From Halanaerobiales bacterium (GTDB taxonomy: Bacteria; Bacillota; Halanaerobiia; Halanaerobiales; DTU029), in the NCBI GenBank assembly GCA_029981855.1, contig JARRCS010000022.1:1-33140 (forward strand): a stretch of 33,140 bases of DNA, written 5' to 3'. The translations under genes and the position numbers were made by a program. Numbering within the stretch: position 1 is the stretch's first letter; every line of letters begins with the position of its first letter. The notes below the pieces were generated by a model. It was not told the DNA's origin and ran no database searches. It worked only from the letters and a program-made list of their open reading frames with translations. This document shows, piece by piece, positions 11,985-33,140 of the stretch.

Positions 11985-12104
11985 GATAATATTCCTCTCA
12001 TCTTTCACCTCCGTTATTCGGAGATGCAGGATTTAGCACCTTATCATCTTTAATGATAGGTTGCCGGGCTTCTTCGGGCCAGTCCCTCCACCACTCTTGA
12101 TGAT
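11985..12104 (-). ncRNA. SAM-I (S-box) riboswitch
   Basis: Minus-strand sequence matches the S-box core: ATCAAGAGTGGTGGAGGGA, GGCCCGAAGAAGCCCGGCAA, an AT-rich P3 hairpin (CCTATCATTAAAGATGATAAGG region), GGTGCTAAATCCTGCA, a P4 hairpin CTCCGAATAACGGAG, and the closing GATGAGAGG. P1 is TCATC with GATGA. The aptamer senses S-adenosylmethionine and turns off transcription when SAM is plentiful, here of metNIQ, a usual S-box target. Confidence 0.95.
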
Positions 12105-12139
12105 TAATTATTATTTTGTGGTTATATTTATTGTATATT

Positions 12140-32628: not shown

Positions 32629-32933
32629 CCGTACCAACTAGACAAAATTCTTATGTTTTTATCAGGAAAAAATTAATGATTTACCGGAGCGTCCGCCATA
32701 CTGGTCCTTTCATCCCTGCCTCAAAGCTCATCAGATTCAAAAGCCCTAAATATAGCGATAGGCTAAGAACAAAATGTCCTAATCGTTTCAAAAGTAAATC
32801 TGGAGATTTTTTGATGAAAACCGGAAATCAATTTCCGCTTTTCATGTCCTTGATATGAAATTCCTTTCCGCTAATTTGTCCTAATATTGAATTAGTGCCT
32901 CACTATCGTTCGGCAACTTACTTACCTTCAAAC
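32629..32933. other. Gene-free stretch upstream of rbsB
   Basis: No supported gene on either strand. It contains a strong hairpin, ATGAAAACCGGAAAT (32814-32828) with ATTTCCGCTTTTCAT (32831-32845), and at 32901-32915 CACTATCGTTCGGCA, related to the start of repeat copy 3, so repeat-associated sequence may begin before the defined left end at 32934. Confidence 0.4.
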
Positions 32934-33140
32934 AACTGCAAATAGATGTTGAAGAGATGTTTGGAAATTTTTTGTATATGACTCTTGGTGAATCGAAGTT
33001 AAAAATCAGGTCGAGCCACAGGAAGTGGCGAGCTTATCAAAGGTCAGGATGACCCATTTGATAAGTTTGCCTGATTTTTAACGGAGATGAACCTTAGAGT
33101 CATCAAAAAATTTCCACTGAATCGGAAACATCTATTTGCA
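32934..33140. repeat. Dispersed palindromic repeat, long copy 4 (runs off the window)
   Basis: Nested inverted repeats, outside to inside: TGCAAATAGATGTT/AACATCTATTTGCA (32937-32950, 33127-33140), GGAAATTTTTTG/CAAAAAATTTCC (32963-32974, 33104-33115), TGACTCT/AGAGTCA (32979-32985, 33096-33102), GTTAAAAATCAGG/CCTGATTTTTAAC (32998-33010, 33070-33082), CTTATCAAA/TTTGATAAG (33033-33041, 33057-33065) and GGTCA/TGACC at the tip, with a side hairpin GCCAC/GTGGC (33015-33029). All these arms are perfect. No protein is encoded. It resembles a non-autonomous palindromic element or a structured RNA. Confidence 0.75.

Follow-up and report, generated by a model that had tools for sequence, protein, structure and literature searches.

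The window, meaning the whole stretch of DNA analysed here (33,140 nucleotides, contig C20 of a Halanaerobiales bacterium), ends within a copy of a folded element that is located upstream of an rbsB-like operon on the - strand. An earlier note had placed a folded element of about 207 bases at 32934-33140 and the folding proved to be real, as the minimum free energy of this stretch is -94.8 kcal/mol (z -11.9) against -43.6 +/- 4.3 kcal/mol for dinucleotide shuffles, none of 200 being as good. The complement folds nearly as well (-84.7 kcal/mol, z -12.1). The strong pairing described in that note was also observed, but its figure of about 65 pairs has to be replaced by the 80 pairs of the minimum free energy structure, and the single axis it claimed gives way to a three-way junction with two hairpin arms atop a long stem (Table 1). 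Its limits for the element do not hold either, since the left end is found at 32898 and 33140 is merely the end of the contig. At the end of contig C24 we observed an exact 95-base overlap with the last bases of the window, followed by 27 more bases (GTTTGTAAAAAAGGAATTTCCTATGGT) and then by ATTGAATTAGTG again, which is the 12-bp flank on the left side. Most simply, C20 and C24 would be neighbouring contigs joined through the window copy. Because C24 supplies the last 27 bases and the second ATTGAATTAGTG, this copy would then have a full length of about 270 bp with a 12-bp duplication. The element has stops in all six frames and no open reading frame. An ordinary SAM (S box) riboswitch (85.1 bits) is also found in the window at 11995-12106 on the - strand.

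Table 1. Parts of the element copy at the right edge of the window.
Feature	Position	Strand	Evidence or remark
Left copy of target-site duplication, ATTGAATTAGTG	32886-32897		Same 12 bases after right end on C24 (L063)
Left outer end, host-specific version (CCTCACTATCGTTCGGCAACTT...CAAAC)	32898-32933	+	20 genomic matches to 22-mer
Stretch named in the earlier note; right side cut by contig end	32934-33140	+	Folding, genome search
Inner inverted repeat, left arm TGCAAATAGATGTT	32937-32950	+	Pairs with 33127-33140; sequence
Inner inverted repeat, right arm	33127-33140	+	Sequence
Conserved core, about 150 nt	32964-33113	+	Model R1 159.3 bits, R2 150.6 bits; common to other genera and classes
Basal stem P1a AAATTTTTTG	32965-32974	+	Pairs with 33104-33113; covariation
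Stem P1b	32980-32997	+	Opposite 33083-33103; alignments and covariation
Stem P2 GTTAAAAATCAGGT	32998-33011	+	Pairs with 33069-33082; double changes in 11/14 pairs
Hairpin hp1, loop AGGAA at 33020-33024	33012-33032	+	Alignment, covariation, loop counts
Arm P3 (33033-33039 with 33059-33065)	33033-33065	+	Capped by hp2
Hairpin hp2, loop AGGAT at 33046-33050	33042-33054	+	Alignment, covariation, loop counts

The search of the host genome that the earlier note proposed returned about 60 matches to the 207 bases, many of them partial, and several contigs of this genome were found to end inside element copies. The left-end 22-mer (the CCTCACTATCGTTCGGCAACTT end) occurs at 20 genomic places with at most 3 mismatches, and nearly all of these lead into recognisable element sequence cut to various lengths; truncation and internal deletion are frequent among the copies. 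A comparison of 42 separate insertions in Halanaerobium sp. MA284_MarDTE_T2 (G009) found 38 of them flanked by exact duplications of 8 bp or more. These duplications are mostly 9-10 bp, and only about 3% reach 8 bp or more when left and right flanks are shuffled. On our own reading, the versions in genomes G001, G038, G039 and G147 carry GATT...TGCAAAAAG-type inverted repeats and 7-bp duplications. The terminal inverted repeats of G147 are 19 bp long, with similar ones in the other three genomes, and their matches in G147 number at least 113 and at least 109. The inner repeat of the element is perfect in the window's own genome, where the outermost ends are not inverted repeats. An autonomous partner was looked for in three genomes: no IS with the same left end was found among the left-end matches of the window's genome, no facing pair of right-end sequences occurs within 3 kb in G009, and none was found among the matches listed for G147. 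A search for a left-arm pattern gave no match in the contigs of other genomes or in viral contigs.

With dispersed genomic copies and target-site duplications both observed, the mobile-element reading of the earlier note is borne out, and the element is almost certainly a non-autonomous, MITE-like mobile element. The REP-like part of that reading finds no support, given the target-site duplications and terminal inverted repeats. To our knowledge, REP/REPIN and IS200/IS605 elements have neither feature, although REP/REPIN-RAYT systems (with Y1 transposases) and IS200/IS605 resemble the element in being mobile palindromes with a strand-specific fold. Membership in these groups was rejected, as insertions are accompanied by duplications of 7 or 8-11 bp. 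Folding of the attC kind is also unlikely because the sites are dispersed and the target duplications differ.

A covariance model built from 18 copies (R1) matches in 19 of the 59 genomes of the class. A second model (R2) does so in 19 of 398 genomes sampled across the phylum, and these include members of six families outside the class; the GC content of the core ranges from 27% to 68%. The outer sequences change from lineage to lineage. For example, they read CTGGACTTTCCCC.../...GGGGAAACTCCTG in G009 and GATTCTGGTGCAAAAAGTC in G147, while G109 and G339 have other ends again; in the window's genome the outer ends are unpaired. The inner left arm TGCAAATAGATGTT of the window copy is the counterpart of the CTGCAAAAAG terminal repeats that the element has in other genomes. 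Because this older CTGCAAAAAG-type repeat survives inside newer ends, both in G009 and in the window's genome, the sequences suggest that the element has been re-housed. As ends and duplication lengths vary by lineage, the comparison shows that the constant part is the folded domain. A shorter form of the core, about 126 nt, was observed in five genomes of two families (G044, G046, G052, G055 and G056; loci L079-L081, L083, L084 and L096), where simpler arms without GGA loops stand in place of hp1 and hp2 and csrA is still present. When the window and five representative loci were compared with the 4227 models of Rfam at E ≤ 1, no family matched the element; the matches obtained were to unrelated riboswitches, together with one weak match on the opposite strand (E 0.89). 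A known Rfam RNA family was therefore rejected as an identity for the element, which has no score above a gathering threshold. No report of a structured MITE family in Halanaerobiales was found in open-access PMC papers.

The fold proceeds from P1, which contains conserved mismatches and purine internal loops (T.T, GA opposite GA and a GGA-type loop in P1b), through P2 to the three-way junction, from which hp1 and the hp2-capped P3 branch. In an alignment of 33 sequences made without a covariance model (A3), 47 of the 56 pairs were found to have changed on both sides. The alignment contains 351 double-change cells against 114 +/- 8 after shuffling and 55-88 with the partner slid, with a covariation score of 0.489 against 0.165. 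As one of the aligned sequences served to draw the structure, part of the excess over the slid versions is built in. The size of the covariation leaves no doubt in spite of this built-in part. Sequences from outside the class, which were aligned to the model and hence are not independent, have 311 double-change cells against 103 +/- 9 shuffled. Covariation among copies, another point raised in the earlier note, is thus very strong across genera and classes. Of its structured-RNA reading, the conserved covarying domain stands, while action as RNA is graded as likely only. The mobile element and the structured domain, which it had offered as alternatives, are not alternatives since the former carries the latter.

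The folded strand can be read from the non-canonical pairs. Columns 52-75 and 53-74, in the stem of hp1, hold G.A/A.G tandems in some copies and Watson-Crick pairs in others, and the same alternation was observed in P3 of the Halanaerobium-type copies. At the level of group consensus, 16 G.A cells replace Watson-Crick pairs against 1 T.C cell; because G.A would be a T.C mismatch on the complement, the + strand is the folded one. We are highly confident that selection acts on the + strand fold, and the alignments show that the domain is kept for one fold on one strand across several classes. The ratio of GU to AC cells is 10:2 in the group consensus, 30:27 among private changes and 144:74 over all copies, compared with a stronger bias of 44:5 in the SAM riboswitches of the same class. 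One pair accounts for five of the ten consensus GU cells, and p is 0.06 for the difference from private changes. The private changes look like neutral decay, and the consensus-level GU excess leans to RNA, which is favoured but not proven. Overall, we consider it somewhat probable that the domain acts as RNA rather than as single-stranded DNA. A scan of two element copies found no promoter-like site.

GGA is present in the hp1 loop in 93 of 109 copies and in the hp2 loop in 107 of 109, with at least one such loop in every copy of the full-form set, and almost all of these copies have CA(N)GGANG in both loops. The hp1 loop was observed to switch between AGGA and ANGGA, each of which has been described for CsrA. 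Across the two hairpins the loops take the forms ACAGGANGU and UCAGGANGA, or are one base longer as ACACGGAAGU, ACAUGGAUGU and UCAUGGACGA. Most of the exceptions are ACGA loops of hp1, of which there are 12; a further 2 hp1 loops read ATGA. Recognition by CsrA needs GG, which the ACGA and ATGA loops do not have. By SELEX, CsrA has the consensus RUACARGGAUGU, its GGA lying in a hairpin loop (PMC7652899), and the loops look like the form described for a CsrA/RsmA site, which makes them candidate sites. The csrA gene was found in 27 of the 30 element-bearing genomes, the three in which it was not detected (G008, G159 and G192) being draft genomes. Within the class, 18 of the 19 genomes with the element have it, compared with 23 of the 40 without (p = 0.005, ignoring kinship and completeness); outside the class, 9 of 11 element-bearing genomes do. 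In B. subtilis the antagonist of CsrA is the protein FliW (PMC4894983, PMC7652899), and many CsrA-bearing bacteria are without CsrB-type RNAs (PMC4894983). From the CsrA-form loops, the co-occurrence with csrA, the use of FliW in B. subtilis and the frequent absence of CsrB-type RNAs, a mobile decoy with two sites is the most economical functional guess. No account of a mobile CsrA decoy was found in open-access PMC papers.

Our main reading, to which we give a probability of roughly 40%, is that a MITE-like element carries a conserved + strand domain which would act as RNA with CsrA-type hairpins. The non-autonomous element, about 210-290 bp long, carries the folded domain of about 150 nt, while a transposase encoded elsewhere would act on its ends and new ends would repeatedly have been acquired around the old element. 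Once the element is transcribed, the domain would work as RNA, this being the most likely of several possibilities, and its two CA(N)GGANG-loop hairpins, about 26 nt apart, could be bound by one CsrA dimer. Each transcribed copy may then serve as a decoy like CsrB/RsmZ, or may place the neighbouring message under CsrA control. CsrA as the predicted ligand is tentative. Points that weigh against the main reading include the negative promoter scan of two copies, the small size of the consensus-level GU excess, the insertion orientations described below and the negative searches for an autonomous partner in three genomes. More doubtful is the larger idea of a transposable-element family with a regulatory-RNA cargo, in which each copy would be a two-hairpin CsrA decoy spread by transposition and adjusting the CsrA network.

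The strong covariation might in principle arise in an ordinary MITE with no selection on the fold, as long inverted repeats are prone to template-switch correction between their arms, and nearly all double changes indeed swap one Watson-Crick pair for another, GU intermediates being few. Such correction, however, would erase the GA/GA, T.T and purine-loop mismatches, which persist from 27% to 68% GC. It also sits badly with the short local hairpins hp1 and hp2, which covary as strongly as the arms, with the conservation of loops and junction and with the strand bias of the mismatches (G.A, not T.C). We regard this explanation as highly improbable already. An unlikely but more serious alternative is that the + strand folds as single-stranded DNA in the service of the element's own mobility or copying, with no role as RNA. 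The domain does travel with a mobile element, and attC sites and IS200/IS605 ends are comparable recognised folds. GU pairs are few, with an all-copy GU:AC ratio much nearer 1 than that of the same-class riboswitch, and a promoter was not found in the scanned copies. DNA, too, forms stable tandem G.A pairs and C-GAA-G hairpins, and variants with the latter occur in L015-L017 and L036. On the other hand, the terminal inverted repeats and the duplications, which measure 7 or 8-11 bp, point to cut-type transposition of double-stranded DNA, GU exceeds AC at the consensus level, and the CsrA-type loop consensus would be left as a coincidence.

The + strand fold may also be functional as RNA with a partner other than CsrA, the loops serving for example another RNA-binding protein, a transposase, a reverse transcriptase or, inside the RNA itself, a tertiary contact. 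The ACGA loops in 12 of 109 copies of hp1, the GGA-less short cores and the csrA-negative genomes misfit strict recognition by CsrA, and for the first and second of these reasons a strict reading with CsrA in every loop was dropped. The ATGA loops count against CsrA in the same way, as does the presence of csrA beside the short form. In addition, conservation is equally strong in the junction, the internal loops and the apical loops, and this suggests that the tertiary fold is compact. Yet the AGGA/ANGGA switch of hp1 with its C-G closing pairs closely fits the known CsrA consensus, and we know of no other bacterial protein with a preference for C-G-closed loops of this kind. We consider a different partner improbable.

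The element resembles bacterial MITEs such as Correia/NEMIS, ERIC, RUP, bcr1 and QMITE2 (reviewed in PMC10969869) in being short, non-coding, multi-copy and mostly intergenic, with terminal inverted repeats, target-site duplications and a foldable transcript. It differs from them in that its interior, not its ends, is conserved across families and classes, and in its very strong covariation, strand-specific non-canonical pairs and lineage-variable ends and duplication lengths. Bacterial MITEs are usually seen as ends plus filler, whereas here the filler is the selected part. With CsrB/CsrC and RsmX/Y/Z of Gammaproteobacteria the element shares CA(N)GGANG hairpin loops, more than one per RNA. 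Unlike these, it has only two predicted sites where they have many, and places them within a long branched stem; it is also mobile, present in many copies and found in Firmicutes-type bacteria. HEARO/omega RNA, group II introns, OLE/ROOL/GOLLD and other large RNAs are likewise structured and in some cases mobile, but the element has neither an Rfam match nor an ORF. If the RNA binds CsrA, mobile DNA would be able to rewire a global post-transcriptional regulator, and a missing RNA arm would be supplied for bacteria without a known CsrB-type RNA. If the decoy reading is true, it would be a CsrB-like antagonist outside Gammaproteobacteria, mobile and repeatedly re-housed in new transposon ends. 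Should CsrA play no part, the element still offers a new covarying structure that Rfam lacks, together with a ready-made collection of natural variants of unusual size.

In G009 (loci L135-L139 and L153-L195), 22 of the 42 insertions were found at a fixed distance upstream of TTGAC, a -35 box, which lies 12-14 nt past the right-end marker or, on the left side, 14-16 nt past the end marker in all but two cases. Promoters within 30 nt point away from the element in 22 cases against 0, on either side of the element, and a -10 element with at most one mismatch follows in 13 of 23 cases against 55 of 388 in the background (p = 7e-6). Transposition in Halanaerobium sp. MA284 is thus apparently targeted to promoters, and the fixed distance makes this directly testable. 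No such pattern was seen in the flanks of G039 and G147 read by eye. Among the co-directional insertions of other genomes, 32 are antisense and 15 sense (p = 0.02, some of the loci being orthologous). Because the G009 promoters point away and antisense is commoner than sense elsewhere, the domain is not simply the 5' leader of neighbouring genes.

A region of G039 (C1:1942000-1981999; L133 and L134) consists of duplicated units, several of about 2.1 kb. They carry RHS-repeat, FG-GAP and unknown genes of about 380 aa, and the element copies among them are nearly regularly spaced and all in one orientation. A cis-regulatory leader reading of this array was rejected; because it is a duplicated RHS/toxin-cassette region, the upstream position of the copies says little.

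Several variants and neighbours of the element were also noticed. A second dispersed repeat (CGCACTCGATGCGCTAGTG...AAACCATCATTGCGTAA...) occurs inside or beside element copies in the window's genome (L003 after 1682; L127 and L130 near 1600-1750). One subfamily (L014, L015, L016 and L020, at about 1601-1665) has an insert of about 65 nt between hp1 and P3 that holds a GGC-GAA-GCC mini-hairpin, and in L036 (G003) a GGTC-GAA-GACC hairpin stands in place of hp1. In G038, a purine riboswitch match (89 bits; L033:1749-1927, - strand) adjoins an element copy and partially overlaps a sub-threshold guanidine-I match of 57 bits.
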